A stretch of 64,000 bases of DNA from the NCBI RefSeq assembly GCF_004210375.1, contig NC_134829.1:59264107-59328106 (forward strand), in the 5' to 3' direction. The notes under the pieces were generated by a model. It was not told the origin of the DNA. It ran no database searches and saw nothing but the letters and a program-made list of their open reading frames with translations. Source of the stretch: Tachypleus tridentatus (taxonomy: Eukaryota; Arthropoda; Merostomata; Xiphosura; Limulidae). The first letter of the stretch is position 1, and each line of letters starts with the position of its first letter. This document shows positions 19,249 to 61,235 of this stretch, one piece after another. Made by a program: the position numbers and the translations under genes.

Positions 19249-20935
19249 CAGTGCTGTACAAAAGTATTAGGATAAGATAATATTTCATCATTCTTTCCGT
19301 TTTACAGAATAATTATTTCAGGCCATTACAGAACGTAAATATCAAATCTATGGTAATGCTTCACTGAAATTGACAACTGAATGAGCCAGAATGAGAATAC
19401 TTGTCATTTGTTAGAATTCCCATATACCTGTATCAAGATCATGTCGTAATGGTTGTGCTTGAATTAACATACTAATCAAATTTGGGGTCTGAAATAACTG
19501 TCATGGTACTCCATGCAGTATCTTAACTATTAGGTTGTCCAGAAACAATGTCGTTTTTGAACTGTTAAGTTTGGAAAAGTATAAACCAGTATTGTAAAAC
19601 ATGTTGTGATAAAAGTAACCACAAGTTGGTTTAACACACTTTTGCCAACGTGTAATAATGCTATTTATGCTCCTATTGTAGAATTCAGAGTTTCTATGGT
19701 TAATGAACTTCCTGAAAGCTTCTTCTGCAGCTGCCTGGTTTTGAAAGAGTTTATTGTTCAAAAAGTTGTCAAAGTGCTTGACAAAAATGAAAATCTGTAT
19801 GGGAAAGGTCTGCAGAATAAGGTGGATGAGTTAGAACCTCGATTCCATGGCACAGCCCAAAAAGCGTAGAGAATTATTAATAGAGCTGAGAATTCACATA
19901 AAATCTTTAAGTGGTGAAAGCTGGACTCTCCAAAATACTGCTGTGGACTTGAAATGCTCCCCAACACTGTCAAATACCTTAGATCATAAAAGTGAGACAG
20001 GTAAACTTGAATATCGGAAAGGAAGAACAAGAACACGTTAACTCAATATCATTGAGTTATCGGAATAGAAAGAAGACTAACGACCATGTACCAAATGATG
20101 GAAAAATGTCCAATCTACAGTAACAAGGAGATTCAATGAGAATAGAATATTAAGTCGTGTAGCAGTTAAAAACCTTTACTTCGATCTCCAAGTATTTTCT
20201 AGAGCCTTAAATTTTCTAAACAGTACAATTGGTGATTGGAAAAGGGTGTTTTGGACGGATGAGTCCAAATTTGAAATATTTGGTTAAAATTTAGGTTGTA
20301 CGTCCAGTGGAAGAATAGTGAAAAATTCATTGTGGGAGACAATGTGATAGTTTGTGGGTGTTTTAATTCTAAGCGGCAGGAAATATTTGCAAAATAGATG
20401 GAATAATGACCAGCACAAGTACCATCAGATACTGATTCATCATGGTATACCCATTGGTTTGCGTACTGTTAATAAATAATTCTACTACCAAGAAGATAAT
20501 GATCCCAAACACTCTTTCAACCATGCAGAAATTACCTAGATAAGAAAGAAACTGCTGGAGTCATTTAAATGATACAGTGGCTCCCACAGCCATTCTCAAT
20601 CGAATTAAGCAGATAGGGGACGTGATAGATCAAAAACTTGAAAAATCAGAAGTTACTTCCAAAGAAATTTTATTGAAGTGTATAAGAGACAATTAGAGCA
20701 CAATCCCAAAGGACACTTTAATCAAATATTTTGCAACAATGCCTGAAAGATTGTTTGCAGTTATTAAAGCAAAAAAGAGACATATAAAATATTAACTGTT
20801 TGCTGAACTCAAGCACTTTTACTTAGTTTCTGATGTTCTAAATATGAAGATTAATAAAATTTTGATGCTTCACCAGTGATTTACCTTTCATTTGTCTTTG
20901 AAAGTAGATGAAATCTAATTTTTGATAGTGTTGTA
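19249..20935 (+). mobile_element. Tc1-like DNA transposon, inactive, interrupted by mariner
   Basis: A Tc1-type transposase remnant reads on the plus strand from about 19847 to 20793. The N-terminal helix-turn-helix region (ETGKLEYRKGRTRTR near its end) is followed by the WTDESKFEIFG block with the second catalytic Asp region. A later frame carries YQEDNDPKHS. Several frame changes and stops interrupt it. The left end CAGTGCTGTACAAAAG at about 19249 is Tc1-like, and a weakly matching inverted counterpart lies near 20900-20935. A mariner fragment lies between the left end and the transposase. The part right of 19719 belongs to triplication unit 1. Confidence 0.8.
19530..19853 (-). mobile_element. 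mariner transposon fragment, 3' part
   Basis: Minus-strand frames encode the C-terminal part of a mariner transposase. EVLTHPPYSADLSHTDFHF matches the usual HPPYSPDLAPxD block, and later residues match the FYxRSI...RWQKC end. A one-base frame change separates the two parts. The outer end TTAGGTTGTCCAGAAAC at 19530 is a mariner-type terminus. The 5' half is missing. The left breakpoint of the tandem unit (19719) falls inside this fragment. Confidence 0.82.
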
Positions 20936-21587
20936 ACACCTTTACATGTTATTATATCACTTTTGTGATATGTGAGGGCGTTCTTAGCTATTGATATGCA
21001 AATCCATGCACACCAACTAATGCACATTTTAACCAGACACAAGTGTAATAAACAATGAAAATAATCTTTATTTCACACAACACAAATTAACAGTATTATA
21101 TATTTAACGCCATGGATTATAGACAATCGTCTTTACTGTCTAAATCTTACATTACTTAGTTGAATTGGTAATGTCAGTGTACGACTGGCAATTCTTATTC
21201 AAACTTAGTGGAGGATTTAGAATATTGAATATGCTATTTTTCAGTTAAAATAGCATCAAACTTTAGTCCAAACAAATAAATATACATCATTTATCTTTGT
21301 TGCTTCAACACTTTTATAATAATGGACTAAAGTTGATATCGAAAGAAGTAAAATTAGTAAATTATTAAAGTTTGTGCATGACAATAAACTGTTTCGTATT
21401 TACTTCTTGATGACGAGATACATCTTTGGAATTTAGATACCTATTCAGGATGTTGAAGTGTTATTGAATGATGTGAATCAACTGTAACATGGGCAAATAG
21501 TTAGCAAATGTCCTTTACATAGTAAATGCTAGATACTCCTTCTTCCCTATTTTAATTTATTTATTTCATTGTAGCTGATAGTCTCAC
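20936..21587. other. Unassigned, AT-rich, with short hairpins
   Basis: It contains a perfect 7-bp stem with a 4-nt loop (ATATCAC/GTGATAT, 20954-20971), an ATGCAAAT octamer at about 20996, and an inverted pair around ACTTTAGTCCA near 21252 and 21324. On the minus strand an AATAAA occurs near 21070. The same sequence recurs in units 2 and 3. Confidence 0.35.
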
Positions 21588-21945
21588 CTGCAGAGTTATT
21601 GAACAGACCACTGCCATCTGTTAATTGCTTTTGGAGGTTTCTACTTTTCTTGTTCTTCGGAGGTACTGATGGTAAGCTTCTTAAGCTTATCAGTAGTATT
21701 TGTGTCCAGGCTGCAGCCCTAATCAAATATATTGTTTTTTGGGTGCTGTTGTCCTTCTTAATGCGTGCAGTAGATATGGAGTAAATGTTGCATAAACACT
21801 TTCTGGATGTTCTTAAATTCTTCTCTATTAACACCATCCCGATTTGTATGTTGCTACACAGATGGAAGATTACAGAGAATATGTATATCCAATATGCTTC
21901 ATCTATATTTTCACCTCAGCTTACTCACCTTGGATCGGGTTTCAT
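21588..21945 (-). other. Exon-like segment, unidentified (unit 1)
   Basis: On the minus strand an ATG at 21945 begins MKPDP and is followed by a consensus donor (CCAAG|GTGAGTAA, boundary 21929). An acceptor-like TCTGTGTAG ends at 21854 and a frame then stays open to a second good donor (CTGCAG|GTGAGA, boundary 21588). Joined at these sites the frame is open. Another frame contains the more protein-like TNRDGVNREEFKNIQKVF before a stop, so this may instead be a decayed gene or transposon piece. I recognise no family. Confidence 0.25.
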
Positions 21946-22080
21946 AGCGAAACTTTTATAAAATTGTGTTAAATGAGTAGCGAGATGTTTAAATTGTTAT
22001 ATATAATAAAGATAAAGATTTGGTCACATTAATACTTTTGATTTTAAAAGTTTTTGTAAAATTCTTAGTTTGGTTACCTT

Positions 22081-22282
22081 TAAAGCATTGTTCGAGGTAC
22101 TGGTGATGACTAACAACAATATGCTTTTGCTATATGTGAGACAAAGTATTTGTTCAAGGTATTGTTGATGACTAACAATAATATGTTTTTGTTATATGCA
22201 AGACAAAGCATTTGTTCAAGGTATTGTTGATGACTAACAATATGTTTTTTGTTTTATGTAAGACAAAGCATTTGTTCAAGGC
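22081..22282. repeat. Minisatellite, period about 62 bp, about 3.2 copies (unit 1)
   Basis: Repeats of a unit containing GGTATTGTTGATGACTAACA, then AATATG, a T-rich stretch, and AGACAAAGCATTTGTTCAAG. The first copy is the most diverged. Confidence 0.88.
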
Positions 22283-23868
22283 AAGTTACAAAACACAGCT
22301 TATATAATGTCATGGTGGAGTGACACATGAAATACATTTTGACATTGATGTTTTGTACATTGTATGATGCCACTGAAAACTGTTTTGGAAGGATATCAAC
22401 AACTCTTTCTCATAAAAAAATATTTATACTCATAGATCATAAAGATGTGTTCAAGTGAGAGACTTAGAATGTTTAAGACAGAGGTTTCCTTGTAATTAAT
22501 GGCATTAGAAAAAAAGAATAAGGTTGACTTTGGGGAACCCAAACCATACATAAAGAAACCCTGTAAGGAATTGTAACTCAGTCATATTACGTAATATGTG
22601 GCATCTTTATAACTTTTAAGAATCCTCGAATGTAGGAATCAACAACAAAATCCATCCATGTGTCCCAGGCAACAATGAAAAACAAACCCAAGAAGTATCT
22701 CTGCCTGGGAATCAGGCCAAATGGGTATGGACTCATTAACCAGGCTATCATTCATACCCTCATCACTACGTCAAGTAAATAGAGAATGAAATGGATATTA
22801 ACACAAAGAAGACATACATGTCAGATTACCAGATACAGCACCTATAGAATTATGTGTGGTCAAATTAATGAAATTTCAGGCAGTAAACTATGATATCCTC
22901 TTACACTAGAGGAACTATGAAACATCAGGAAGGAGTGGTGTGCTTTGGATGTGAAAATCTTACAACAAAGCTTGTTGTAATGTGAATTACACTGCAGGAT
23001 TCACAGATAACACAGATAAAATATTGTAATGTGGACTCTAATGACGTGATTGGATAAGGCTCCAAATCTTTATAACTATAAAATAATGAACATTCTCTAG
23101 CCTCAGCTGTATTTCTCTGTCTTCATCATAAAACCAATTAGCATTCAACTTTGTAATCTATCTTGAAACAGTTTTAATGTATCAGGAAGCTTTTATCCTG
23201 TTTTTTATGAGTTAACACTTTTCAGTTAAAGCAAGTGTCCTTTGTATTATTAAATAAAGAGTGTTTTCACTGTATGTACACTTGTATTTCTTTGAACATA
23301 GTTAATCAGAAATACTTTCTGGTCAAATATTTTTTTTATACAGGGATCAACCTCATTCTTAGGGACTTAGTTTTACAGGGGAATATTACACTGTTATAGA
23401 CTATGTTTTCTGATAATTAATACATTTTATAAAGTTTGTTAGTGGTACTTGTGGAATGATGCACAAAGAAATTTCCCAAGTTTCTAGAATGGATGTAATG
23501 TATAGAATATTCTAGCGACTTGTGAAAATATTGTAGCATATAAAATTAGTTAGTTAATCATTGATCTTTTTAGTTGATGCATCTATAACATTTTACAAAT
23601 CTGTACTGAATTAGCAAGTGTGTTTTGATCCAGTTTTGTATTAATGCTGGAGGTACAGGAGGAAAATTAATAAGTACATGGCTATTTACTTTTATTTGTG
23701 AGTTATGCCTATCTATTGGTTGTCTTTAGTTTGTGAAACTGTAGGTTATGAAACATTCAACTAAACAAATAAAATGTTTTCCATTTCATTTAGTAAACTG
23801 TACTTTGTACTAGTTTTATTGAATAATCACAAAGAACACATACAATGATACAAACCATTACAACAGAG
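22283..23868. other. Unassigned AT-rich sequence (unit 1; also 36092-37660 and 49885-51460)
   Basis: I see no gene or clear repeat. Stop codons are frequent in all frames. Confidence 0.35.
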
Positions 23869-25600
23869 GTGCCAGTAGAGCTGCTTTGGCTGAAATAAAA
23901 TCTAAACTGAACTGTTTGATTTCACGATGGTAACATGTTTAAAGTGTGATTGAACAGTTGGAGGAAATAACGCAACAGTGGAAGTAATAAAACTCTGAAA
24001 CAGAATATTATAAAAGATCTAAAAGAAGATGCAGAGTTATAAAAACAGACAGAGGATTCAAAGATCCCGATATAAAATTAAAGGAAAATTACAAATATTA
24101 AAGAAAGATCTTGAAAAAGTTGACGATGGTTAACAGAAGATCAAAATATTTGAAGAATTACAAGAACAAATTAATATTTAAATAAGAATTAAGGACAAAA
24201 AATTGTTTGAAAATAAGATAAAAAAGTTATAGGAGATGTACAGAGAAAGTATAATAAAAATGTAAAGTGTAAAACTTTTTTATGGAGTACAGAAAGATTT
24301 TGATAATAGACTTGAAGTAGTATGAAAGATATTTATGATGTACATATTATAACAGCAAAACCACTGGTGTCAAAAAGAATAAAGACAGGATAAAACATAT
24401 GGAAAATAAAACTGTAAAGCAAAAGACAAAATTGTTCATACCTCTTTTGGTACGTTCTTGAGAATCTTAACCCCAAGCAACATCACCTATGAAATAAGAA
24501 ATGGAAGAAACCATCTGGCCTACACCTGTCAATTCTACTGATATGTCATCTATGATTACACAACCTTCTTGGACTACAAGTTATATCATTATCCAACTCA
24601 GTTACAGAGATTAGCTGGTCAGTTCAACAACACTGCTCTGTTGAAAAACCAACAGCTTACAATAGAAAACATATCATAGGAGGTATATAATGCTATGTTT
24701 CAAATAATTTCTGAAGTGAATAGATGAAGTACCAAACATAAAGCCTTCCATTTTGTTGCCAAGCTCAACAAAATTAAGTAATATGTCAGCCAACAGCCAA
24801 ATCAACTATTTGTGACTGTCTTGTCAAAAAGGTTTAGCATGACATACCTAAGGAAAGTTTCTAAAACAAAAGTTCACTAGCAGAATATGGAGCAAAGATT
24901 AGAACTTAACTAAACTTTCATTATATGTGTAAAGGTTTGTCTACGTTTCTTACCCACGATTCACTTGAAATGATGAAATAGTTGAAAAGTGGCACATTTA
25001 TATGTGACATAGTAGACAAGGGTATGCAAAGTAGGTTTACATTTTTAAAGAAAGCTGTCTAGTTGGTAGTGAATATTGAATCAATTGAATTCACCATCTA
25101 GGAATCATAAATTTATGTGATCAAATAATATCGATACATCCAACTTCTCTCATGAAGTCTTTAGACGACTGTTAACTCAGGATGGAAAAGGGAAACCATG
25201 CGATAGTAGGTGTTTCAACTGCAACTTAAAAAAAAAAAAGAGTATATTATCAAGAACTATAGGTTTAGTTTGAATTTTGTTCAATGGTACATGAAGGGTA
25301 TCTGCACCTGCCATCATTAATTTAGCAGTAACAAACTAGAGGGAAAGCAGCTACTCATCACCACTCAGTTATTTTCTTTACCAATAAACAGTAGAATATA
25401 CCATCACAATATAATGTCCTGAAACCTAAAAGAGTGAGCATGTTTGCAGGAACTAAAGACCAGAAGGTGTTTCAGCTGTAATTTAAAATGACACATTAAT
25501 GAAACTGTTTCTAAAGGATGAAAGAAAAATGAAAGGAAACTCCTCTGGAAAAGAAGGGAATTAAATCTGAGACTATGATGAATCTGTCATTAATAATGTA
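23869..25600 (+). mobile_element. Possible gag-like retroelement fossil with SINE insertion (unit 1)
   Basis: Plus-strand frames give lysine- and glutamate-rich, gag-like sequence, and near 25195-25225 a CFNCN stretch reminiscent of a CCHC zinc knuckle. An old family 1 SINE (25261-25460) is inserted there, flanked by an imperfect direct repeat of about 20 bp. The element is broken throughout. No polymerase region was found, so family and limits are uncertain. Confidence 0.35.
25261..25460 (-). repeat. SINE family 1, old copy (unit 1)
   Basis: Antisense body remnants appear in order: TTTAGTTTGAATTTTG, ATTAATTTAGCAGTAAC, AGGGAAAGCAGCTACTCATC and GAGCATGTTTGCAGGAAC. The direct repeat GGTGTTTCAnCTGnAAnTTA lies on both sides (about 25200 and 25466). 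Confidence 0.75.
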
Positions 25601-25700
25601 TGAAGTAGATATTACCTTGAAGATCAGAAAACATAGAGCTTATTATAAAAAGATACCAGTATGGGAATCCTGCCTGAGCTACAGTTGTTTGATCCCACTT

Positions 25701-27330
25701 GGTTGGTTGATTTGGTGTTTTATGGCACAAAGCAGCTAGGCTATCTGCACCAAATATCAGGTAAAAAGTTAAAATTAAAGTAAATTTAGTAAAATGCATA
25801 AAAGGAAATTAAAGCAAAACAAAACAAAGTTTAAAAAAACATAACTAGCATAAAACCAATGTTTACATCTAGTCTACAACGTTAAGAGAAAAACTACAGT
25901 AACACAAGTTGAAAAGGACTTTTTATAGCATAATTGTAATTATCATAACTTGCCTGGAAGACTAACAGGTAAGTACAAAAACCACCGTCAGTCACCTGAA
26001 GTTGGTCTTTCCAGTCCTGATTCCAAGTTATTTGATGTTATGGCCATTTTCAAAAAATAAAGTAATAAAAGTTTTAAAAGACTTGTAGCAAACTTTTAAT
26101 AATAACTCGTCAGGATGACTAATGGGTAGTTCAAACAACACCTCTTTTTCTTCCAACCATTCAGGGCAAGAACGAAAGTAGGATGGGTGACAGCCATTGC
26201 AATTGATGCAATGAGGGTCTGTTTCACACTATTAGGCATCACGGTCCTTGATACAAGTACACGTCAAGGAACCACAACATGACGTCTTCTAGTGACCGAA
26301 CCATTGACACTGGAAACATTGGAAAGAGTTTGGAATGTATGGCCATTTTCTGCAGTTAACATAGCCTGCCTTGATGGTCGCAGGCAGATGTGGTGACGTA
26401 AACGTGAGAATGAAAACATTTGTCGGCACCATAATTTCATCTTTGCAAGCAGATATACGCCTCACTGCAGAAACTCCTTGGATGGAGAAACCAGCGAGAA
26501 TCTCTAACTCTGGGATGTTCTCCAAATCCCTCTCAACAATAACTCCTCATGATGAATTCAAAGTAGCATGAGGTGTAACCTCAATAGGTAAATCCCCAAT
26601 TGCCTTTGAATGCAAGAAGACTACACTGTGTTGAAATGCAGATGTTTCCACCAATATGTCACCAGATCTTTACTGACTTTGGAGAGTCAGCAAGTCCCTC
26701 CAGTCCCTTCTGAATGAAAGAGAGAGACATTACCCTAAAGATTTGTCTGGAAATGAATGCAATATAAGAAAATTAGGTACAACAGGTGGTACAGATGGTG
26801 AGGATTGCTGCTCAGAATCTTCAAGATGTTGTTGTTTACCTATAGACTGTTTTTCACTATTTTATTAAAATTTTTAATTGGAGTATCCATAATAAAGAAA
26901 GGGAAATCTCAGTGTCCACTGACCCCACCCACCACAGAGCCTTATGAAGGGATGCACCACAATGCCAAACAACGACACTGCAGGAATGCCAGGGTTTAGT
27001 GAGCACTGTACCCAAACACCAGCATCAGATATAATATCCACAACACCTGTGGAGAACATCCAACATTGGTACTTGGTTGACCCTAGCCCGAGTGGACCAG
27101 ACGATTGACCCAAGGGGCCATCTCAAGGCCGCCCGTCTACAGGAATTCAAGGCCAAAGTGGTGTGTTTGGGTTGGACTCCTCAACCACCAGGATTCTTTC
27201 CTCCCCTTCACAGGTTGCCATGCACAGCAAACATGGGTGGATGTTTAGATCCCAGAGAAGATAAACTGAAAGAACAGAACCTTCCCCTGGGAGGTCCCCT
27301 CACCATGTACAGGAATCCACACTGAGAGGG
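25701..27330 (-). mobile_element. LINE remnant: 5' region plus ORF1 (unit 1)
   Basis: On the minus strand, 26888-27330 is the dispersed 5' segment also seen at 706-1150. About 25970-26760 decodes to an ORF1 nucleic-acid-binding protein of the kind found in Jockey/X-element LINEs. It includes QGVSAVRRISACKDEI, KAGYVNCRKWPYIPN and the first CCHC knuckle start CFQCQWFGH. Further cysteine and histidine residues follow in shifted frames. Stops and frame changes make it non-functional. No endonuclease or reverse transcriptase is present. The left end (from GGTTGGTTGATTTGGTG at 25701) resembles another repeated segment common in such genomes and may be a separate element. Confidence 0.75.
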
Positions 27331-28000
27331 ATTCCACTTGAAAGCAGCTTTCCTGCAATATTTTAAAGTTAGAATACGTTATCATTCCACACTTTCTGTA
27401 ACATTAACATTTGAAATATTTACATGTGCTTGTATGGATATGGACCTATTGAAATTAATTCAAAAATTGGGTTAATTTTATGCAGGTTAAGTTAAAGTTG
27501 TTGGAAATAACCTAATTATCCAGTCTTTGCACTAACTTCACAATCTGTGCCTATAAGTATGTGAAGCTTAATTTGAAATTAGTTTACTAGTAATTCCCAT
27601 TTAGAACAGCATAATTTTCTGTGACTTGTTTGGGTGTAAGAAAGATGATAAAAAAACTAATATTTTTTTTTTATTATTATTATTATACAAGTTTTTCCTT
27701 GGATAAGTAAAATTATCTGGTGGAACAAAAAATTTAATCAAAGACTGGTCTGACTTAAGAGTTTGTTCACTTGAACACCTTATATACACAAAGGGTAAAA
27801 CGGACAGGTCAGAGGTCTCTAAGGCATAAATCTTCATTTTATGCTTCTGAGGACATGAAACCAGTCAGCAACATCTTCCATCTGACTTTTACTCCTATAA
27901 TGCACCTACAACATAATACTGAAAAGAAAATTTCTGAAGCAGCACATTTCAAACCCGAGATGCTGGAACCCTCAGTCTGATATGCTAACAAGTACATCAT

Positions 28001-28016
28001 ACACACACACACACAC
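28001..28016. repeat. (AC)8 microsatellite (unit 1)
   Basis: Eight AC dinucleotides. The same length occurs in unit 2 at 41806-41821. Confidence 0.9.
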
Positions 28017-28355
28017 AAACACTTTGATAAAGTGAGTCGTTCTGGTTGCAAAAAGAACATTTGAGTCTTTTATTCTTCACTTTACAGTGATTAACTGAAA
28101 TTAAAGTTTAAAATGCCTCTTATTAAATGCACAACAGTTACAGCATTCTTACATTAAGAGTACTGTTGAATAAGTAGTTTTTTGAACCAAGTTCATTTCT
28201 AGAAAACATAGCCCACTACTCCAACACAAACTTCTGCAGTACCTATCACAGTTAAGTATGCCTTGTTGTAGTAGCACTTTAACTAATAACAATATATTTT
28301 TCATGCCAATTTCCAAATTGTTTTTATGTGAACACAAAATGCCTCAAATAATTGT

Positions 28356-28588
28356 TTAGTTTGTTTTGAATTTCAAGCCAAACTACACGAGGGCTATCTG
28401 TGCTAGCCATCCCTAATTTAGCAGTGTAAAATAGAGGGAAGACAGCTAGTCATCACCAACCACCTCTCGGGCTACTTTTTCTCCAACGAATAGCTGAAAT
28501 GGCAAGCATGTTTGGTGTGATGAGGATTTGAACCCACGACCCTCGGATTACATGTCAAGTGCATTTACCGCCTGGGCATGCTGGGCCA
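28356..28588 (-). repeat. tRNA-derived SINE, family 1, with target-site duplication (unit 1)
   Basis: A GTTTGTTTTGAATTTC tail lies at the left and a tRNA-like head at the right (GGATTTGAACCCACGACC, then GGGCATGCTGGGCCA). A perfect 13-bp duplication CTCAAATAATTGT flanks it at 28343-28355 and 28589-28601. It lies just beyond the probable Rab5 3'UTR. Confidence 0.88.
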
Positions 28589-28601
28589 CTCAAATAATTG
28601 T

Positions 28602-31600
28602 AAAAACCATTTGTTACTACATTTAGATGTATAATTATACAAGTATATTTAGAAATGTCTAAATTCAATCAGGATTAAAAACTAAAAATTTAGAAAATAT
28701 ATGATGTGCAATAAAATATATTGATATACAATTTTCATTATAAAATTGGTCTTTTGGTTGCTTTGATTTTTAAATATTAACAAAAACGTTTTTGTTGAAA
28801 AAAACACTTTTATTTTACTTCACTTACTACAAAGACAAATACATGACATTTCTTTATAACCACTAGCTTTTACAATACTTTCTTTAGGAACCAATAAACA
28901 TGTAGGTTTGTTAATTAACAGAAAAACTATTTCAATCCTCAATGAGACTCACGCCATTTCATTTTAAAGATTATATTTAATCAATATACAGATTCTAATT
29001 GTTAAATTACTTTAATAATGTTTTTTAATATCACAATTCTATGAAAATGTGTTTATATCATCATCAGTATTAAGTTTACTGTGAGCTTTCAACTGAAGAT
29101 GAAAGAGTAATAGTCCTACAACAGTAATTTGTAATCATTGGTATTAGTTCAGGGAATGTTAAGAAACAAGTACACAAAATATATTGATTTTATGTTATTG
29201 AATACAATAAAGTTACTCACACATTTCCCATTTCAAAATTAACAAAGTATGGGAATACAATATCTATGAAGAATACAATATCTATACTTTTAATCAAACT
29301 TGCATAATTTTAGTTAGATACAAAACACTGTTGCTGGAACACAAGCCCATGTTTACTATTAACAGGACTTACAATTACATGTGGTTTTTTCTTGCTTTTA
29401 CTGCATTTAACACCCAAAATATTTTACAATCAAAATCATTCTATTCTTATTGTCTGTGCAGAACAAGGAAACTCAAAAATATAAAAGTATGGTTATGTAT
29501 TTAAAGACGCATCATTTAATTTGCTAGTTTTAAATAATCATATATGAAAACAAAAATTCTTATTTACATAAATTTTGTAAACCATGTCCAAAAGAGTGTT
29601 GAATGGAAAATAATGTATGTGTCATATTCAAACACATGAACAGTTATTCCTAGTATTATTCTTAATAATATTGACAGTGCACTTCTATTTGACCTTCAGC
29701 TAAAAAATGAATTTTATTTTTACAAACCTACAGAGAAATAAAACACTAGTCTCAGATACTTGAACAATTTTCATTTTCATTAATTTCAAAATTAACATTG
29801 TATATTCTTTAAGTTCCACCTTTACACCAATAATGTTATTTTGTCATAAGTCATACAAAACAAACAAACAGTAAATGAAGTGTTTTGATTATCAAAATGT
29901 TCCAAGACTTCATAACACCAAATAATGATTTTCAAGTTTTGATCATGTAAAAAAACACAAACTATATTGCAGTGTTGTACATAACATGTTTCGAAAGAAT
30001 TGTATATTTAATTCATTAACTGAGATCTAGATTTTGTCTAAAATTACAAATCATGCAGTTAAAATACTAATTTCATGGCTAGCTGTGTGTGTATAAACAC
30101 ACACATCTCTAATCAAGTACACTTTCTAAAAAACTGACATAAAATACACAAAAGCAAGTTTTTTTTACTGTATGCTGAAAAAAATAAACATAAAAAATCA
30201 ATTTTTTAGGAAATAAAAGCATTTTTAAATTAAGATATGGAACTATGCTTACAAAATGATAAGTTGCATGTATATATGCAGTTATGTTTCTACAATATTT
30301 TTGGTTGAAAGAAGATTTTGCATCCCTTTATAATGATGGTTTTTTAGATACATAAAGAAGAGTTACTTTTTTTAGTGAATGACACTGACAAATTAAACTA
30401 TATAATTGTAAAAAGACCTATTTATCAGAATTATTATCCTTATATTATAATACACACACACACACATACATAAAAACCTTATACTATGTACTTTCATTCC
30501 AGTCACAGATACTTTACAAACTAGAACTTTAAAACATATAATTGGCTTGATTATTTTGCATAACTATGAAATATTATCAAAATAGTTTTAAAAGGACTAA
30601 ACATTGTTTGATATAAACTGAATTGTGATTACAGAACATTAGCTTTTTAACATTCCTTGAATACCAAGAATAATAATGCAACTATTCTTGTCTTCTGTCA
30701 AATATTAAGTTTTTAATTGTAGCTTATCACCAGTCAATGGATAAAGCTGTCAAAATTAAACAGAACCTTTTAGTTTCTTGAATGTACGTGTATACATGGG
30801 TGTATCGCACATATCAACCCATCAGAAATCTAAAATAATTAGTATTTTTAAATCTATTAAAGGATCCTTTGTGTATATACATATACAAAGACAATAATAC
30901 TAATATGCAAGTAAGCTGTCATCCATTAAAGCACAAGGCCAGCAACACACTTTTATTGTTTATGCATGATTTGAAAGTTATTTTATGTGAATTATCCTGA
31001 TGAATGTCATAAACTTATAAATATAATCTTCCTATAACTTTTACATTTTTTTGAGATAATACAGCAAAGTATGATTATGCTTCAAATGTCTCTATCATGT
31101 TCCTATTTACCATATATATATATATATACAGCAAAGAATATATCAGACAAGTATTGATACAATCTTTTAACCTATCATAACTTTTCTTTACTTCTTTTAT
31201 TCATGAAATACGATACATAAGCTGAATATTTAAGATGGGCTATGATACATTTATCTCAACAACAACAACAAAAGAAAACCAAATGTGAGAAAATAAAAAT
31301 GAAATTATATACCAAACAAAACCAAACAACATTTCATAAATCAGATTAATTTTTTTTCCATAATTTATAACTTATAAAAGATTTTCTCCCATTTTCTTAA
31401 TAGATGTTGATTGCTAGTGAAGATTTTATATTTTACATGTTTTCTTTTAATATGAAATAATACATTACAATTAACCTTTTCTGTTTTAGCTTATGCCTAC
31501 AGAGTACTAATGGTGTGGTCATCTTTTTTTTATTTCAGAGCCACAACTTTTTTTAAAGATGGAAAATGTATATACACAATTTTCCAATATACATTACATC

Positions 31601-31654
31601 AGGGCCAAATGCAAGAAAGGGAAATTCATGTCTGGAATAATACAATACTTTTCA
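28602..31654 (-). other. Rab5: Probable Rab5 3'UTR and downstream flank (unit 1)
   Basis: About 3 kb of AT-rich, repeat-poor sequence follows the Rab5 stop codon on the minus strand. An AATAAA-type signal lies on the minus strand near 28808, just before the SINE, so a long 3'UTR ending there is plausible. It contains a perfect 9-bp stem hairpin (TGTGTGTGT/ACACACACA, 30084-30105). A (TA)n tract lies near 31110-31128. Confidence 0.4.
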
Positions 31655-42392: not shown

Positions 42393-42405
42393 CTCAAATA
42401 ATTGT

Positions 42406-47309: not shown

Positions 47310-47340
47310 TTATAAGGTTTTTAACTTCTTCTGCAGCTGC
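47310..47340. other. Tandem junction 2/3
   Basis: Identical to junction 1/2, including the TAA filler, so both boundaries come from one original joining event followed by amplification, or from one repeated assembly path. Confidence 0.9.
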
Positions 47341-49194: not shown

Positions 49195-49551
49195 CTGCAG
49201 AGTTATTGAACAGACCACTGCCATCTGTTAATTGCTTTTGGAGGTTTCTACTTTTCTTGTTCTTCGGAGGTACTGATGGTAAGCTTCTTAAGCTTATCAG
49301 TAGTATTTGTGTCCAGGCTGCAGCCCTAATCAAATATATTGTTTTTTGGGTGCTGTTGTCCTTCTTAATGCGTGCAGTAGATATGGAGTAAATGTTGCAT
49401 AAACACTTTCTGGATGTTCTTAAATTCTTCTCTATTAACACCATCCCGATTTGTATGTTGCTACACAGATGGAAGATTACAGAGAATATGTATATCCAAT
49501 ATGCTTCATCTATATTTCACCTCAGCTTACTCACCTTGGATCGGGTTTCAT
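49195..49551 (-). other. Exon-like segment, unidentified (unit 3)
   Basis: Copy of 21588-21945 with the frame open as in unit 1 over 49195-49444. Confidence 0.25.
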
Positions 49552-49684
49552 AGCGAAACTTTTATAAAATTGTGTTAAATGAGTAGCGAGATGTTTAAAT
49601 TGTTATATATAATAAAGATAAAGATTTGGTCACATTAATACTTTTGATTTTAAAGTTTTGTAAAATTCTTAGTTTGGTTACCTT

Positions 49685-49884
49685 TAAAGCATTGTTCGAG
49701 GTACTGGTGATGACTAACAACAATATGCTTTTGCTATATGTGAGACAAAGTATTTGTTCAAGGTATTGTTGATGACTAACAATAATATGTTTTGTTATAT
49801 GCAAGACAAAGCATTTGTTCAAGGTATTGTTGATGACTAACAATATGTTTTTGTTTTATGTAAGACAAAGCATTTGTTCAAGGC
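49685..49884. repeat. Minisatellite, period about 62 bp (unit 3)
   Basis: Same array with the same repeat number. A minus-strand frame of 82 codons crosses it and is not a gene. Confidence 0.88.
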
Positions 49885-51460: not shown

Positions 51461-53200
51461 ACAACAGAGGTGCCAGTAGAGCTGCTTTGGCTGAAATAAA
51501 ATCTAAACTGAACTGTTTGATTTCACGATGGTAACATGTTTAAAGTGTGATTGAACAGTTGGAGGAAATAACGCAACAGTGGAAGTAATAAAACTCTGAA
51601 ACAGAATATTATAAAAGATCTAAAAGAAGATGCAGAGTTATAAAAACAGACAGAGGATTCAAAGATCCCGATATAAAATTAAAGGAAAATTACAAATATT
51701 AAAGAAAGATCTTGAAAAAGTTGACGATGGTTAACAGAAGATCAAAATATTTGAAGAATTACAAGAACAAATTAATATTTAAATAAGAATTAAGGACAAA
51801 AAATTGTTTGAAAATAAGATAAAAAAGTTATAGGAGATGTACAGAGAAAGTATAATAAAAATGTAAAGTGTAAAACTTTTATGGAGTACAGAAAGATTTT
51901 GATAATAGACTTGAAGTAGTATGAAAGATATTTATGATGTACATATTATAACAGCAAAACCACTGGTGTCAAAAAGAATAAAGACAGGATAAAACATATG
52001 GAAAATAAAACTGTAAAGCAAAAGACAAAATTGTTCATACCTCTTTTGGTACGTTCTTGAGAATCTTAACCCCAAGCAACATCACCTATGAAATAAGAAA
52101 TGGAAGAAACCATCTGGCCTACACCTGTCAATTCTACTGATATGTCATCTATGATTACACAACCTTCTTGGACTACAAGTTATATCATTATCCAACTCAG
52201 TTACAGAGATTAGCTGGTCAGTTCAACAACACTGCTCTGTTGAAAAACCAACAGCTTACAATAGAAAACATATCATAGGAGGTATATAATGCTATGTTTC
52301 AAATAATTTCTGAAGTGAATAGATGAAGTACCAAACATAAAGCCTTCCATTTTGTTGCCAAGCTCAACAAAATTAAGTAATATGTCAGCCAACAGCCAAA
52401 TCAACTATTTGTGACTGTCTTGTCAAAAAGGTTTAGCATGACATACCTAAGGAAAGTTTCTAAAACAAAAGTTCACTAGCAGAATATGGAGCAAAGATTA
52501 GAACTTAACTAAACTTTCATTATATGTGTAAAGGTTTGTCTACGTTTCTTACCCACGATTCACTTGAAATGATGAAATAGTTGAAAAGTGGCACATTTAT
52601 ATGTGACATAGTAGACAAGGGTATGCAAAGTAGGTTTACATTTTTAAAGAAAGCTGTCTAGTTGGTAGTGAATATTGAATCAATTGAATTCACCATCTAG
52701 GAATCATAAATTTATGTGATCAAATAATATCGATACATCCAACTTCTCTCATGAAGTCTTTAGACGACTGTTAACTCAGGATGGAAAAGGGAAACCATGC
52801 GATAGTAGGTGTTTCAACTGCAACTTAAAAAAAAAAAAAGAGTATATTATCAAGAACTATAGGTTTAGTTTGAATTTTGTTCAATGGTACATGAAGGGTA
52901 TCTGCACCTGCCATCATTAATTTAGCAGTAACAAACTAGAGGGAAAGCAGCTACTCATCACCACTCAGTTATTTTCTTTACCAATAAACAGTAGAATATA
53001 CCATCACAATATAATGTCCTGAAACCTAAAAGAGTGAGCATGTTTGCAGGAACTAAAGACCAGAAGGTGTTTCAGCTGTAATTTAAAATGACACATTAAT
53101 GAAACTGTTTCTAAAGGATGAAAGAAAATGAAAGGAAACTCCTCTGGAAAAGAAGGGAATTAAATCTGAGACTATGATGAATCTGTCATTAATAATGTAT
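51461..53200 (+). mobile_element. Possible gag-like retroelement fossil (unit 3)
   Basis: Copy of 23869-25600, broken in the same way and carrying the same SINE insertion. Confidence 0.35.
52861..53060 (-). repeat. SINE family 1, old copy (unit 3)
   Basis: Same insertion as at 25261, at the same relative position. Confidence 0.75.
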
Positions 53201-53299
53201 GAAGTAGATATTACCTTGAAGATCAGAAAACATAGAGCTTATTATAAAAAGATACCAGTATGGGAATCCTGCCTGAGCTACAGTTGTTTGATCCCACTT

Positions 53300-54930
53300 G
53301 GTTGGTTGATTTGGTGTTTTATGGCACAAAGCAGCTAGGCTATCTGCACCAAATATCAGGTAAAAAGTTAAAATTAAAGTAAATTTAGTAAAATGCATAA
53401 AAGGAAATTAAAGCAAAACAAAACAAAGTTTAAAAAAACATAACTAGCATAAAACCAATGTTTACATCTAGTCTACAACGTTAAGAGAAAAACTACAGTA
53501 ACACAAGTTGAAAAGGACTTTTTATAGCATAATTGTAATTATCATAACTTGCCTGGAAGACTAACAGGTAAGTACAAAAACCACCATCAGTCACCTGAAG
53601 TTGGTCTTTCCAGTCCTGATTCCAAGTTATTTGATGTTATGGCCATTTTCAAAAAATAAAGTAATAAAAGTTTTAAAAGACTTGTAGCAAACTTTAATAA
53701 TAACTCGTCAGGATGACTAATGGGTAGTTCAAACAACACCTCTTTTTCTTCCAACCATTCAGGGCAAGAACGAAAGTAGGATGGGTGACAGCCATTGCAA
53801 TTGATGCAATGAGGGTCTGTTTCACACTATTAGGCATCACGGTCCTTGATACAAGTACACGTCAAGGAACCACAACATGACGTCTTCTAGTGACCGAACC
53901 ATTGACACTGGAAACATTGGAAAGAGTTTGGAATGTATGGCCATTTTCTGCAGTTAACATAGCCTGCCTTGATGGTCGCAGGCAGATGTGGTGACGTAAA
54001 CGTGAGAATGAAAACATTTGTCGGCACCATAATTTCATCTTTGCAAGCAGATATACGCCTCACTGCAGAAACTCCTTGGATGGAGAAACCAGCGAGAATC
54101 TCTAACTCTGGGATGTTCTCCAAATCCCTCTCAACAATAACTCCTCATGATGAATTCAAAGTAGCATGAGGTGTAACCTCAATAGGTAAATCCCCAATTG
54201 CCTTTGAATGCAAGAAGACTACACTGTGTTGAAATGCAGATGTTTCCACCAATATGTCACCAGATCTTTACTGACTTTGGAGAGTCAGCAAGTCCCTCCA
54301 GTCCCTTCTGAATGAAAGAGAGAGACATTACCCTAAAGATTTGTCTGGAAATGAATGCAATATAAGAAAATTAGGTACAACAGGTGGTACAGATGGTGAG
54401 GATTGCTGCTCAGAATCTTCAAGATGTTGTTGTTTACCTATAGACTGTTTTTACACTATTTTATTAAAATTTTTAATTGGAGTATCCATAATAAAGAAAG
54501 GGAAATCTCAGTGTCCACTGACCCCACCCACCACAGAGCCTTATGAAGGGATGCACCACAATGCCAAACAACGACACTGCAGGAATGCCAGGGTTTAGTG
54601 AGCACTGTACCCAAACACCAGCATCAGATATAATATCCACAACACCTGTGGAGAACATCCAACATTGGTACTTGGTTGACCCTAGCCCGAGTGGACCAGA
54701 CGATTGACCCAAGGGGGCCATCTCAAGGCCGCCCGTCTACAGGAATTCAAGGCCAAAGTGGTGTGTTTGGGTTGGACTCCTCAACCACCAGGATTCTTTC
54801 CTCCCCTTCACAGGTTGCCATGCACAGCAAACATGGGTGGATGTTTAGATCCCAGAGAAGATAAACTGAAAGAACAGAACCTTCCCCTGGGAGGTCCCCT
54901 CACCATGTACAGGAATCCACACTGAGAGGG
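53300..54930 (-). mobile_element. LINE remnant: 5' region plus ORF1 (unit 3)
   Basis: Copy of 25701-27330. The ORF1 fragment is at 53887-54123 and the 5' segment at about 54484-54930. A private G-to-A difference lies near 53586. Confidence 0.75.
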
Positions 54931-55595
54931 ATTCCACTTGAAAGCAGCTTTCCTGCAATATTTTAAAGTTAGAATACGTTATCATTCCACACTTTCTGTA
55001 ACATTAACATTTGAAATATTTACATGTGCTTGTATGGATATGGACCTATTGAAATTAATTCAAAAATTGGGTTAATTTTATGCAGGTTAAGTTAAAGTTG
55101 TTGGAAATAACCTAATTATCCAGTCTTTGCACTAACTTCACAATCTGTGCCTATAAGTATGTGAAGCTTAATTTGAAATTAGTTTACTAGTAATTCCCAT
55201 TTAGAACAGCATAATTTTCTGTGACTTGTTTGGGTGTAAGAAAGATGATAAAACTAATATTTTTTTTTATTATTATTATTATACAAGTTTTCCTTGGATA
55301 AGTAAAATTATCTGGTGGAACAAAAAATTTAATCAAAGACTGGTCTGACTTAAGAGTTTGTTCACTTGAACACCTTATATACACAAAGGGTAAAACGGAC
55401 AGGTCAGAGGTCTCTAAGGCATAAATCTTCATTTTATGCTTCTGAGGACATGAAACCAGTCAGCAACATCTTCCATCTGACTTTTACTCCTATAATGCAC
55501 CTACAACATAATACTGAAAAGAAAATTTCTGAAGCAGCACATTTCAAACCCGAGATGCTGGAACCCTCAGTCTGATATGCTAACAAGTACATCAT

Positions 55596-55607
55596 ACACA
55601 CACACAC
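55596..55607. repeat. (AC)6 microsatellite (unit 3)
   Basis: Two repeats shorter than the matching tracts in units 1 and 2. Confidence 0.9.
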
Positions 55608-55945
55608 AAACACTTTGATAAAGTGAGTCGTTCTGGTTGCAAAAAGAACATTTGAGTCTTTTATTCTTCACTTTACAGTGATTAACTGAAATTAAAGTTT
55701 AAAATGCCTCTTATTAAATGCACAACAGTTACAGCATTCTTACATTAAGAGTACTGTTGAATAAGTAGTTTTTGAACCAAGTTCATTTCTAGAAAACATA
55801 GCCCACTACTCCAACACAAACTTCTGCAGTACCTATCACAGTTAAGTATGCCTTGTTGTAGTAGCACTTTAACTAATAACAATATATTTTTCATGCCAAT
55901 TTCCAAATTGTTTTTATGTGAACACAAAATGCCTCAAATAATTGT

Positions 55946-56178
55946 TTAGTTTGTTTTGAATTTCAAGCCAAACTACACGAGGGCTATCTGTGCTAGCCAT
56001 CCCTAATTTAGCAGTGTAAAATAGAGGGAAGACAGCTAGTCATCACCAACCACCTCTCGGGCTACTTTTTCTCCAACGAATAGCTGAAATGGCAAGCATG
56101 TTTGGTGTGATGAGGATTTGAACCCACGACCCTCGGATTACATGTCAAGTGCATTTACCGCCTGGGCATGCTGGGCCA
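55946..56178 (-). repeat. SINE family 1 (unit 3)
   Basis: Same insertion as in unit 1, with the same target-site duplication at 55933-55945 and 56179-56191. Confidence 0.88.
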
Positions 56179-56191
56179 CTCAAATAATTGT

Positions 56192-59100
56192 AAAAACCAT
56201 TTGTTACTACATTTAGATGTATAATTATACAAGTATATTTAGAAATGTCTAAATTCAATCAGGATTAAAACTAAAATTTAGAAAATATATGATGTGCAAT
56301 AAAATATATTGATATACAATTTTCATTATAAAATTGGTCTTTTGGTTGCTTTGATTTTAAATATTAACAAAAACGTTTTTGTTGAAAAAAACACTTTTAT
56401 TTTACTTCACTTACTACAAAGACAAATACATGACATTTCTTTATAACCACTAGCTTTTACAATACTTTCTTTAGGAACCAATAAACATGTAGGTTTGTTA
56501 ATTAACAGAAAAACTATTTCAATCCTCAATGAGACTCACGCCATTTCATTTTAAAGATTATATTTAATCAATATACAGATTCTAATTGTTAAATTACTTT
56601 AATAATGTTTTTAATATCACAATTCTATGAAAATGTGTTTATATCATCATCAGTATTAAGTTTACTGTGAGCTTTCAACTGAAGATGAAAGAGTAATAGT
56701 CCTACAACAGTAATTTGTAATCATTGGTATTAGTTCAGGGAATGTTAAGAAACAAGTACACAAAATATATTGATTTTATGTTATTGAATACAATAAAGTT
56801 ACTCACACATTTCCCATTTCAAAATTAACAAAGTATGGGAATACAATATCTATGAAGAATACAATATCTATACTTTTAATCAAACTTGCATAATTTTAGT
56901 TAGATACAAAACACTGTTGCTGGAACACAAGCCCATGTTTACTATTAACAGGACTTACAATTACATGTGGTTTTTTTCTTGCTTTTACTGCATTTAACAC
57001 CCAAAATATTTTACAATCAAAATCATTCTATTCTTATTGTCTGTGCAGAACAAGGAAACTCAAAAATATAAAAGTATGGTTATGTATTTAAAGACGCATC
57101 ATTTAATTTGCTAGTTTTAAATAATCATATATGAAAACAAAAATTCTTATTTACATAAATTTTGTAAACCATGTCCAAAAGAGTGTTGAATGGAAAATAA
57201 TGTATGTGTCATATTCAAACACATGAACAGTTATTCCTAGTATTATTCTTAATAATATTGACAGTGCACTTCTATTTGACCTTCAGCTAAAAAATGAATT
57301 TTATTTTACAAACCTACAGAGAAATAAAACACTAGTCTCAGATACTTGAACAATTTTCATTTTCATTAATTTCAAAATTAACATTGTATATTCTTTAAGT
57401 TCCACCTTTACACCAATAATGTTATTTTGTCATAAGTCATACAAAACAAACAAACAGTAAATGAAGTGTTTTGATTATCAAAATGTTCCAAGACTTCATA
57501 ACACCAAATAATGATTTTCAAGTTTTGATCATGTAAAAAAACACAAACTATATTGCAGTGTTGTACATAACATGTTTCGAAAGAATTGTATATTTAATTC
57601 ATTAACTGAGATCTAGATTTTGTCTAAAATTACAAATCATGCAGTTAAAATACTAATTTCATGGCTAGCTGTGTGTGTATAAACACACACATCTCTAATC
57701 AAGTACACTTTCTAAAAAACTGACATAAAATACACAAAAGCAAGTTTTTTTTACTGTATGCTGAAAAAAATAAACATAAAAAATCAATTTTTTAGGAAAT
57801 AAAAGCATTTTTAAATTAAGATATGGAACTATGCTTACAAAATGATAAGTTGCATGTATATATGCAGTTATGTTTCTACAATATTTTTGGTTGAAAGAAG
57901 ATTTTGCATCCCTTTATAATGATGGTTTTTTAGATACATAAAGAAGAGTTACTTTTTTTAGTGAATGACACTGACAAATTAAACTATATAATTGTAAAAA
58001 GACCTATTTATCAGAATTATTATCCTTATATTATAATACACACACACACACATACATAAAAACCTTATACTATGTACTTTCATTCCAGTCACAGATACTT
58101 TACAAACTAGAACTTTAAAACATATAATTGGCTTGATTATTTTGCATAACTATGAAATATTATCAAAATAGTTTTTAAAAGGACTAAACATTGTTTGATA
58201 TAAACTGAATTGTGATTACAGAACATTAGCTTTTTAACATTCCTTGAATACCAAGAATAATAATGCAACTATTCTTGTCTTCTGTCAAATATTAAGTTTT
58301 TAATTGTAGCTTATCACCAGTCAATGGATAAAGCTGTCAAAATTAAACAGAACCTTTTAGTTTCTTGAATGTGCGTGTATACATGGGTGTATCGCACATA
58401 TCAACCCATCAGAAATCTAAAAATAATTAGTATTTTAAATCTATTAAAGGATCCTTTGTGTATATACATATACAAAGACAATAATACTAATATGCAAGTA
58501 AGCTGTCATCCATTAAAGCACAAGGCCAGCAACACACTTTTATTGTTTATGCATGATTTGAAAGTTATTTTATGTGAATTATCCTGATGAATGTCATAAA
58601 CTTATAAATATAATCTTCCTATAACTTTTACATTTTTTTGAGATAATACAGCAAAGTATGATTATGCTTCAAATGTCTCTATCATGTTCCTATTTACCAT
58701 ATATATATATATATACAGCAAAGAATATATCAGACAAGTATTGATACAATCTTTTAACCTATCATAACTTTTCTTTACTTCTTTTTATTCATGAAATACG
58801 ATACATAAGCTGAATATTTAAGATGGGCTATGATACATTTATCTCAACAACAACAACAAAAGAAAACCAAATGTGAGAAAAATAAAAATGAAATTATATA
58901 CCAAACAAAACCAAACAACATTTCATAAATCAGATTAATTTTTTTTCCATAATTTATAACTTATAAAAGATTTTCTCCCATTTTCTTAATAGATGTTGAT
59001 TGCTAGTGAAGATTTTATATTTTACATGTTTTCTTTTAATATGAAATAATACATTACAATTAACCTTTTCTGTTTTAGCTTATGCCTACAGAGTACTAAT

Positions 59101-59239
59101 GGTGTGGTCATCTTTTTTATTTCAGAGCCACAACTTTTTTAAAGATGGAAAATGTATATACACAATTTTCCAATATACATTACATCAGGGCCAAATGCAA
59201 GAAAGGAAATTCATGTCTGGAATAATACAATACTTTTCA
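56192..59239 (-). other. Rab5: Probable Rab5 3'UTR and downstream flank (unit 3)
   Basis: Copy of 28602-31654. If the gene splices to its nearest terminal exons, this is the copy used as 3'UTR. A private A-to-G difference lies near 58374. Confidence 0.4.
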
Positions 59240-59352
59240 TCACTTGCAACATCCACTGCTGGTTTGTTGTTGGTTTTCACTCAAATCCACCCCTCGTCTT
59301 CCATGCCCAGGTAAACCACTAGCCAACTGTTCATTTTTAGGTAACTTCTTAG
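59240..59352 (-). CDS. Rab5: Rab5 last coding exon (copy 3, nearest the upstream exons)
   Basis: Coding sequence as in copies 1 and 2, ending GCCK and TGA. By position this is the terminal exon expected to be used by default, because it is the first one reached after the copy 3 penultimate exon. Confidence 0.93.
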
Positions 59353-60514
59353 CTGTATAAAATTTAAAAAGAGTACTGCTTAATCTTGGAAAAAAAAACA
59401 ACTCCAAAAATGTATAAAAATTATTTCTAAATAATTTCTTTTCAGTTAAATGGTATTTTCAAACAAATCATCAAAAAAACTCTGCGACAAAATACTTCAT
59501 TCCATTGGAACATTAATGAACTCCCTCAGTGTTGTAAATGATAAACCATATTTTTATAGTTACTATTCAGGGGGAGTCACAATTACTTAAATAGCCTGTT
59601 ACAATTTGGTATGAGGCCCTAACTGGTTTAAAACTTCCCAAACTATTGCTAGAAGTTATTGTTCCTCATTTTTATTTATACCACTACACATGTTTAATTG
59701 CAGTCATAAAAATTTGCTTATTTGGCTAATACCACAAGCAGTGGACAGTTTAAAACTTAAGCAGCTTTATAGTGTACAAGAAAATTCATATATAAGAGTA
59801 TACATACAAGGATTTACTTCCTACCAGTTATAAAATGAGCTGAATTCTTATGAATGTTTTCATGTATTTTGTTCTGAAATAGAACCCAAGTTTGATGATC
59901 TGTTTGCCTTTTATTGCAAATAATCAAAACTTTACTTAATCCTTTGATCTGGGTCAACTCAGTAATGTGACATCAACAGCTTTCAACTTCCTACACTCCA
60001 AAGTAGGTTACAAAGCAGTTTAAAGCACAACACCCAATGATATTTTTAAAACTGTAATTACAGTTTTGAATCTGGTTACAGTATAGTTATGAACTAGATG
60101 TTTATATTTTTAAAAAATCTATATGCTCATAGCATACTACTATGATTTTATGATATACAACATAAATATGTGCTGTGTGGTATTAATTACAACAATAACA
60201 ATTGTTTGATATTTAGTTTGTACTAAAGATATTAATTTTAACTGTTTGATAAAACTTGTTATAAAGTGCAACTAAATGAAAAGTGCAAAATTAGACATTA
60301 TAAAATATAATGGAAATTTTGTAAGTATAGAACATCATCTTTCCACAAGCCAATAAATTTTAACCTTAGTGAATTTCATTTTTACCAAAAAATGCACAGC
60401 AGTTTTCCCTCTTAACTTCATTGCCCAAATTCAAAGAACATTAACAAAAGTAGAAATATTTTCAAAATAACAACTGCATAACTTAGAAAATTAAATAGTT
60501 CTATTTCATCTTAC

Positions 60515-60605
60515 CTATAGCCAAAAATATATCATTTACATTCATAGCTGTCTTCAGAAGTCTCCATAAAAGGAGACCATTTTCTTCAGCATATGCTTGT
60601 GCTTC
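60515..60605 (-). CDS. Rab5: Rab5 penultimate coding exon (copy 3), motif altered
   Basis: Same exon as copies 1 and 2, but 91 rather than 94 bases long. One A is missing from the A run near 60570 and two bases (GC in CTTCGCAG) are missing near 60556. The losses total three bases, so the outer frame is kept. Between them, however, the reading changes from [11 protein letters not shown] to [10 protein letters not shown]. This removes the G5 ETSAK motif that contacts the guanine base, so a protein made from this copy should bind nucleotide poorly. Splice sites are intact. The change may be a real mutation or an uncorrected read error. It is notable because this is the copy closest to the upstream exons. 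Confidence 0.9.
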
Positions 60606-61235
60606 CTAGAAAATATATATCAACAAACACACATCAAGTAAACAATCATTTAAACAGTTAGTACTTATATCAAAAGGAATGACTGTGTTAAAAACACCAC
60701 CATGAAACCTCTGATGAAAGAGAACATATTTATTAATGCTTGTTTTGAATTTTACACATATACACAAAGGCAGTTACTAGAACATTAAAACAAAACTTTT
60801 CAAAATACTTCACCACTAAAGAAAAATATTATCAAAGAATGTTTTAACAATACTGTTTTAAGTAAGCAATTTAAATAGAATAAATTTTACCTAACTTTTA
60901 GGTACTTAATGGTTTGTACTTTAACACTTCTCTGCACAAAATTACCTGCATTATACAAGAATTGCACACTTTTATTTTCAAAAGTTATACTCAAGAAGTC
61001 AGATTTGTTATATTTAGAATCACATCCCTTGTTTTAAGGTTTCAGTCATTGTTTGTACTTATGTAGGTTTCTTACATATACATTTTTTTAAGGTAGTTAT
61101 AAGGTTTTGTTTTACTTTTACCTTTATCATATGTACTTTGCTTAAAACACAAAAGAAAATATGAAACCTTAGTTTGTTTACACAGTGAAATACTGTGATG
61201 AAAAGAAAACTTAGGAATTTTAACTCAATAAAAGT
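60606..61235 (-). other. Rab5: Rab5 intron, right part of unit 3 and single-copy flank
   Basis: AT-rich intron. The unit boundary at 61108 lies inside it. The matching unit sequence in copies 1 and 2 (33022-33529, 46816-47324) instead runs into the next unit. Confidence 0.7.

Follow-up and report, generated by a model that had tools for sequence, protein, structure and literature searches.

The near-perfect tandem array in the stretch of Tachypleus tridentatus DNA analyzed here (the window, 64,000 nucleotides) is not a triplication on scaffold C5, where it was assembled; it can be no more than a young copy-number variant at a locus on scaffold C12. The array sits on one 57,818-base contig (6333-64150) with 500-N gaps on both sides. 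We are highly confident that this contig is an unpurged C12 allele, parked by scaffolding with other strays at the C5 end. We also favor, with some reserve, the fuller reading that it represents C12:19.590-19.620 Mb from a haplotype on which a 13.8-kb segment was truly amplified. An earlier note had offered a choice between a very recent triplication and an artefact of assembly. The placement on C5 almost certainly falls under the second, since the whole contig is a second C12 copy, and the extra units may be a real heterozygous amplification at C12.

Self-BLAST and k-mer offsets confirmed exactly the three head-to-tail units at 19719-61108 that the earlier note had described, with the lengths given in Table 1. 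Pairwise identity among them is 99.5-99.6%. They are thus head-to-tail, longer than 1 kb and at least 90% identical, as tandem duplications are, and 13.8 kb of near-identity excludes chance as their source. In global alignments, units 1 and 2 showed no substitutions over 13,782 aligned bases, while unit 3 differed from unit 1 at 2 positions and from unit 2 at 3. Indel events numbered 36 (units 1 and 2), 54 (1 and 3) and 53 (2 and 3), and 32, 43 and 41 of these, respectively, fell in homopolymers of 4 or more. The earlier note was right that one-base homopolymer changes predominate and that substitutions are few: 70 of the 84 indel events in a MAFFT alignment are of the homopolymer kind, and unit pairs differ by 0-3 substitutions.

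Table 1. Features of the window and its immediate surroundings (positions are those of the window)
Feature	Position	Strand	Remarks
End of preceding contig	1..5832	.	End probes 98% identical to C1:33.28-33.31 Mb
Scaffold gap, 500 N	5833..6332		
Left flank on stray contig	6333..19718	+	Collinear with C12:19607131-19620468 (minus)
Degenerate element	19533..20925	+	Putative extent
Unit 1	19719..33529	+	13,811 bases; 3-base junction filler at its end
Unit 2	33530..47324	+	13,795 bases; the 3-base filler of unit 1 also at its end
Unit 3	47325..61108	+	13,784 bases; filler-free join to right flank, as in C12
Rab5 coding exon 5 (C-terminal)	31661..31768; 45462-45569; 59246-59353	-	tblastn, units 1-3
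Rab5 coding exon 4	32923..33027; 46717-46821; 60510-60611	-	tblastn, units 1-3
Rab5 coding exon 3	63872..63976	-	tblastn extent; in right flank
Right flank on stray contig	61109..64000	+	Collinear with C12:19590297-19593353 (minus); contig end at 64150, outside window
Second scaffold gap, 500 N	64151-64650		Just beyond window

The contig is collinear from end to end with C12:19590297-19620468, at 99.3-99.6% identity. At the C12 locus, where no N occurs in the 140 kb examined, the unit is present once and both flanks are present. A probe within the unit found four full-length copies, three on the stray contig and one on C12, so that the copy number is three versus one within a single assembly. 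The left flank is longer by about 63 bases, located near 10.95-11.01 kb. For C12 sequence outside the aligned part, two of two probes (starting 133 bases past one end and 297 past the other) found no second copy; their other matches, among 40 candidates scored for each, were repeats at 89% or less. Whole-contig collinearity, bounding gaps and single-copy sequence beyond the ends, three marks of a heterotype duplication, are present here. The 500-N gap within the window (5833-6332) had gone unmentioned in the earlier note.

Gong et al. 2019 is reportedly the chromosome-level assembly of T. tridentatus. The assembly at hand has been published, from Nanopore data (PMC7815833), and criticized for redundancy and mis-assembly, with duplicates reported for 4,855 of its 34,966 predicted proteins, at no less than 98% identity and 70% coverage (PMC7210998). 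That criticism concerns the same assembly, but in the excerpt bearing on it gives protein counts and does not name this locus. A closer parallel is the false heterotype duplication, or unpurged haplotig, which the relevant part of PMC9516828 describes as a near-identical second copy, gap-bounded and collinear with the primary copy. Such pairs are tabulated there whether or not they share a scaffold. The gaps listed are those between same-scaffold pairs, whereas the two copies here belong to different scaffolds, with gaps nonetheless bounding the stray one. Unlike the duplications described there, our stray contig has two extra tandem units. A large heterozygous difference of this kind would explain why the assembler kept the allele separate.

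A four-way MAFFT alignment of units 1-3 and the C12 copy contains 84 indel events and 17 substitution columns. All three units differ from C12 in 9 columns, unit 3 differs from the others in 8, and in none does one unit agree with C12 while the remaining two differ from it. We therefore rejected the idea that two haplotypes had been glued in tandem. The nine columns common to the three units hint at haplotype-specific alleles. Among the indels, 11, 12 and 22 events are private to units 1, 2 and 3, and 19 split two versus two in all directions, C12 pairing with unit 3 in 8, unit 1 in 6 and unit 2 in 5; we read these splits as probable noise.

Measured against C12, units 1-3 carry 9, 8 and 11 substitutions, the left flank 15 and the right flank 8. 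These are the global aligner's figures, which we use throughout; the counts vary with gap placement, and MAFFT pairs gave 15, 8 and 16 for the units, 23 for the left flank and 9 for the right. The contig differs from C12 by 2.7-7.6 indel events per kb, the right flank having the highest rate among the parts compared. Substitutions run at 0.58-1.13 per kb in the units and left flank, below the heterozygosity of 0.65% reported for the species in another study (PMC6390705), and this counts against the reading that we favor. By substitution count, the amplification would be younger than the haplotype split, since units 1 and 2 do not differ over 13.8 kb while each unit differs from C12 at 8-11 positions.

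The two unit junctions are identical, each with 3 filler bases, and at up to 3 mismatches the junction sequence occurs twice genome-wide, both times in this array. Between the two 4-kb regions around the breakpoints, the longest match was 17 bases at 94% (blastn, E 1); the extended homology at both breakpoints expected of NAHR was not found. We suggest that homology-free end joining produced the first duplication and left the 3-base filler, and that a later unequal exchange or re-replication could have copied unit and junction together to give three units. A real heterozygous 13.8-kb tandem triplication at the 3' end of Rab5, begun by such repeat-free end joining, is the account towards which we lean. 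The left breakpoint, 19719, falls within a degenerate element that carries a presumably mariner-like terminal sequence. For part of this element (20082-20925), a relative at 74% identity lies at C12:19628678-19629526, and a Pfam search of the ORF at 19585-19869 was negative.

The unit was said to be gene-bearing. It does contain coding exons 4 and 5, the final two of a Rab5 gene, as seen from reading of the sequence and tblastn, but this is only part of a gene; the amplified segment would comprise these exons and about 12 kb downstream. Over 108 bases, exon 5 matches C12 without a difference in each of the three units. Indels disturb the frame of exon 4 in unit 3 and of exon 3, the latter having two one-base insertions relative to C12, which suggests that few reads may underlie the contig. 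Nor can C12 be taken as error-free: its exon 4 has a one-base frameshift, and the same exon is open in units 1 and 2. Since exon 3 continues into the third unit, one Rab5 gene ought to remain intact; units 1 and 2 would then bear promoterless Rab5 3' exons. A look for whole genes covered 10 of the 18 stop-to-stop ORFs (70 aa or more) listed for unit 1, and none of these 10 had a Pfam match above a cut-off. Within the window, Rfam at gathering scores returned no hit, and ARAGORN with the bacterial code no tRNA.

Perhaps the contig is a misplaced C12 allele whose two extra units were created by chimeric or mis-overlapped Nanopore reads that looped the 13.8-kb segment? We consider this a substantial possibility, though short of an even chance. 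The published redundancy and mis-assembly of the genome (PMC7210998) would accommodate it, as would the high indel load with its peak in the right flank, the near absence of substitutions among units and the indels within conserved Rab5 exons. However, the breakpoints lack homology from which a loop could form, and the same junction and filler were found twice; together these make it unlikely that the assembly graph looped through a repeat common to both ends. The missing homology weakens the repeat loop and leaves chimeric reads as a possible source, but from a single random chimeric read two copies would be expected, so that three argue against it. The contig also includes both flanks, and every unit has indels of its own. 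We judge a real, young heterozygous amplification somewhat likelier than an artefact. An amplification at C12 may fit the suggestion in the earlier note that copy number varies between individuals. If true, it would be nothing unusual as structural variants go, though a young one whose end-joining junction is clean, and it could serve as a marker in what is an endangered species. It resembles tandem segmental duplications and copy-number variants in its head-to-tail units over 1 kb, identity over 90% and identical junctions. It differs in that the array, as assembled, is on one stray contig, the primary scaffold having a single copy.

A true interchromosomal segmental duplication that carried the C12 region to the end of C5, where it was then triplicated in tandem, is very improbable. 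The sequence does stand on scaffold C5, but the limits of the copy are exactly the contig ends, gaps flank it on both sides with no unique C5 sequence joined to it, and its divergence from C12 lies within the allele range. Its neighbors look stray too. One is a satellite contig. The preceding contig looks like a second copy of C1: window 2001-5800 matches C1:33310826-33314674, and a 5-kb probe whose start lies 20 kb upstream of the window's first base corresponds to C1:33283893-33288749, each at 98%; the likeness to C1 is judged from these two probes. Scaffolding, presumably by Hi-C, would have put our contig in this company. As a feature of the C5 chromosome the array is to be ignored. Stray second copies at this end could pass for gene-family growth or segmental duplication, and the number of genome duplications in this lineage is debated in the accounts given by PMC7210998 and PMC7815833.

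That the array is real but wrongly counted, with two or more than three units over-expanded or collapsed by the assembler, is scarcely credible: near-identical units would be hard to count from noisy reads, but these have private indels and their contig extends into both flanks.

Two further probes were placed on C5. The one at 59.15 Mb landed in repeats. The other, of 2 kb at 57.0 Mb, was rejected as a single-copy C5 control, since an inverted copy at 100% identity lies some 240 kb from it; taken with the known redundancy of the assembly, this copy tells against our favored account by suggesting that stray second copies may arise here without a large variant.

An earlier note had described a near-perfect 13.8-kb tandem triplication here, three head-to-tail repeats (units 1, 2 and 3), and read it as either a very recent segmental triplication or an assembly artefact. 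We confirmed its borders exactly, at 19719, 33530, 47325 and 61109. The few substitutions and predominantly homopolymeric changes that it reported between units were also borne out. With a global aligner, no substitutions separated units 1 and 2 across 13,782 aligned bases, and the indel events numbered 36; the corresponding counts were 2 and 54 for units 1 and 3, and 3 and 53 for units 2 and 3. Most indel events (32 of 36, 43 of 54 and 41 of 53, respectively) lay in homopolymers of at least 4 bases. Each unit carries one minisatellite with a period of 61 to 62 bases and 3.3 copies (22082-22281, 35893-36090 and 49686-49883).

Where does this array belong? The triplication and both its flanks are carried by a single contig of 57,818 bases (the stray contig), which runs from one 500-N gap (5833-6332, inside the window) to another (64151-64650, just outside). 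Some 72 kb separate the window (C5:59264107-59328106) from the end of the 59.4-Mb scaffold C5. The entire stray contig aligned with the minus strand of another scaffold (C12:19590297-19620468), where a single 13,777-base unit is present along with both flanks; the 140 kb examined there contained no N. Searching the assembly (2,167,478,450 bases in 205 contigs) with a 2-kb probe from within the unit, we observed four full-length copies: three on the stray contig and one on C12. Two C12 probes outside the aligned part (C12:19620601-19624600 and C12:19588001-19590000) had no full-length match other than themselves; the 40 candidates scored per probe otherwise comprised repeats of at most 89% identity. 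Within the reach of these probes, the second copy hence stops at the contig ends. The C5 placement of the stray contig is very probably false.

Coordinates of the repeat units, of the segments aligned with C12 and of the Rab5 exons
Feature	Window	C12	Strand	Detail
Unit 1	19719-33529			13,811 bases
Unit 2	33530-47324			13,795 bases
Unit 3	47325-61108			13,784 bases
Aligned segment	6333-10942		C12 minus	99.6%
Aligned segment	11013-33526		C12 minus	99.5%
Aligned segment	33530-47321		C12 minus	99.5%
Aligned segment	47325-64150		C12 minus	99.3%
Rab5 exon 1		19581517	plus	tblastn
Rab5 exon 2		19588711	plus	tblastn; best PDB matches Rab-5C and Rab-5A chains
Rab5 exon 3	63872-63976	19590448	C12 plus, window minus	tblastn
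Rab5 exon 4	recurs in each unit	19593854-19593959	C12 plus, window minus	tblastn
Rab5 exon 5	recurs in each unit	19595115	C12 plus, window minus	tblastn

A four-way MAFFT alignment of the three units and the C12 copy held 17 substitution columns and 84 indel events. All three units agreed against C12 in 9 of the 17 columns, and unit 3 alone differed in 8; these 8 partly reflect gap placement, the global aligner leaving 2 to 3 differences for unit 3. In none of the 17 columns did C12 side with a single unit against the remaining pair, which argues that the three units derive from one haplotype, distinct from that of C12. On the same ground, we rejected the possibility that the stray contig is two haplotypes laid in tandem. 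Two-against-two splits made up 19 of the 84 indel events, joining C12 with unit 3 in 8, with unit 1 in 6 and with unit 2 in 5; we read them as homopolymer noise, not shared descent.

Against C12, the global aligner gave 1.13 substitutions per kb in the left flank, 0.58 to 0.80 in the units and 2.63 in the right flank, which also has 7.6 indel events per kb. The stray contig has about 63 additional bases near 11.0 kb relative to C12. The excess of indels over substitutions, their concentration in homopolymers and the noise at the right end together point to Nanopore consensus errors. The chromosome-level tri-spine assembly is reported to have been built with Nanopore reads (PMC7210998). Window G+C is 32.2%; another T. 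tridentatus draft is reported at 32.03% (PMC7011531).

Are the extra units themselves real? We lean somewhat toward their being so, on an alternative C12 haplotype. Both internal junctions are identical, the last bases of a unit being followed by three extra bases and then a unit's first bases. Unit 3 passes into the right flank without the three extra bases, as in C12. The genome contains two occurrences of the junction sequence, both in the array, and a comparison of the 4-kb regions surrounding each breakpoint found no match of more than 17 bases (E 1). Together, the identical filled junctions and this lack of matches suggest that end joining would have come first, with the joined unit then being copied. 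A chimeric read arising once at random would be expected to yield two copies, not three, and three copies with the same filler require the junction at two or more positions in the layout. Neither a repeat-driven graph loop nor recombination between repeats suits breakpoint regions with so little in common. Drawn from the assembled sequence, these points are arguments, not proof. A SINE-like repeat of about 285 bases (19245-19530) adjoins the left breakpoint, with 79-83% identity to the 38 other genome matches scored.

The absence of substitutions between units 1 and 2 over 13,782 bases gives an upper 95% bound of about 0.22 per kb (Poisson, our own arithmetic), compared with 0.58 to 0.80 between the units and C12. 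The amplification, if real, would hence have arisen after the two haplotypes separated. As a kind of finding it is unexceptional, serving mainly as a warning about this assembly.

We located the exons of a Rab5 gene by tblastn with a human RAB5A query. The unit extends downstream from the intron that separates exons 3 and 4 to a point about 12 kb past exon 5. A promoter-driven Rab5 transcript would take exons 4 and 5 from unit 3, and units 1 and 2 would carry orphan 3' exons. Exon 5 is identical in all three units and C12. Exon 4 has indels in unit 3 and a one-base frameshift in C12; in units 1 and 2 it is open. On the stray contig, exon 3 differs from C12 by two one-base insertions and one substitution. 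Errors thus occur in both copies; given the C12 exon 4 frameshift, absent from units 1 and 2, the primary sequence probably also has consensus errors in conserved exons.

The contig upstream of the gap at 5833-6332 looks like a copy of part of scaffold C1. Both probes, one at each end of C5:59244107-59269906, matched there at 98% (C5:59244107-59248978 to C1:33283893-33288749, and C5:59266107-59269906 to C1:33310826-33314674). From probe end to probe end, this contig is about 5 kb shorter than the corresponding C1:33.284-33.315 Mb. Its CpG observed/expected ratio is 0.78 (window 1-5832 plus C5:59244107-59264106), compared with 0.22 in the triplicated contig; the ratio is 0.94 in the last C5 contig (64651 onward), which spans 71,116 bases downstream of the second gap and reaches the scaffold end. 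In that last contig, divided into eight pieces, the one 10-kb piece analysed with TRF is a 37-base satellite of 269 copies, with full-length relatives of 84-87% near the start of scaffold C6 and at C2:20.28 Mb. TTAGG, TTAGGG or CCTAA runs of at least 4 units were not found in the C5 stretch examined.

None of the C5 pieces tested proved to be unique sequence. C5:57000001-57002000 recurs in inverted form, 100% identical, at C5:57242586-57244584, which ruled it out as a single-copy control; the pair is either one more false duplication or a large palindrome. Repeats occupy the probe C5:59150001-59152000, which has copies of 97-99% identity at C5:59035857, at 59167361 and, partially, at 59184724. 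Positions 59150001, 59167361 and 59184724 are spaced 17,360 and 17,363 bases apart, and another large tandem repeat near the C5 end is possible.

Elsewhere in the genome, a search for Coagulin (PF02035), the clotting protein of horseshoe crabs, returned 19 matches above the cut-off, the strongest at 100 bits, and none in 14 control genomes. Twelve of the 19 are on scaffold C7 and seven on C11, where the best match lies at 9.02 Mb. The regions are C11:9016804-9022066, C7:19.2-20.5 Mb, C7:29.07 Mb and C11:42.9 Mb; several closely spaced C7 matches may be tandem copies.
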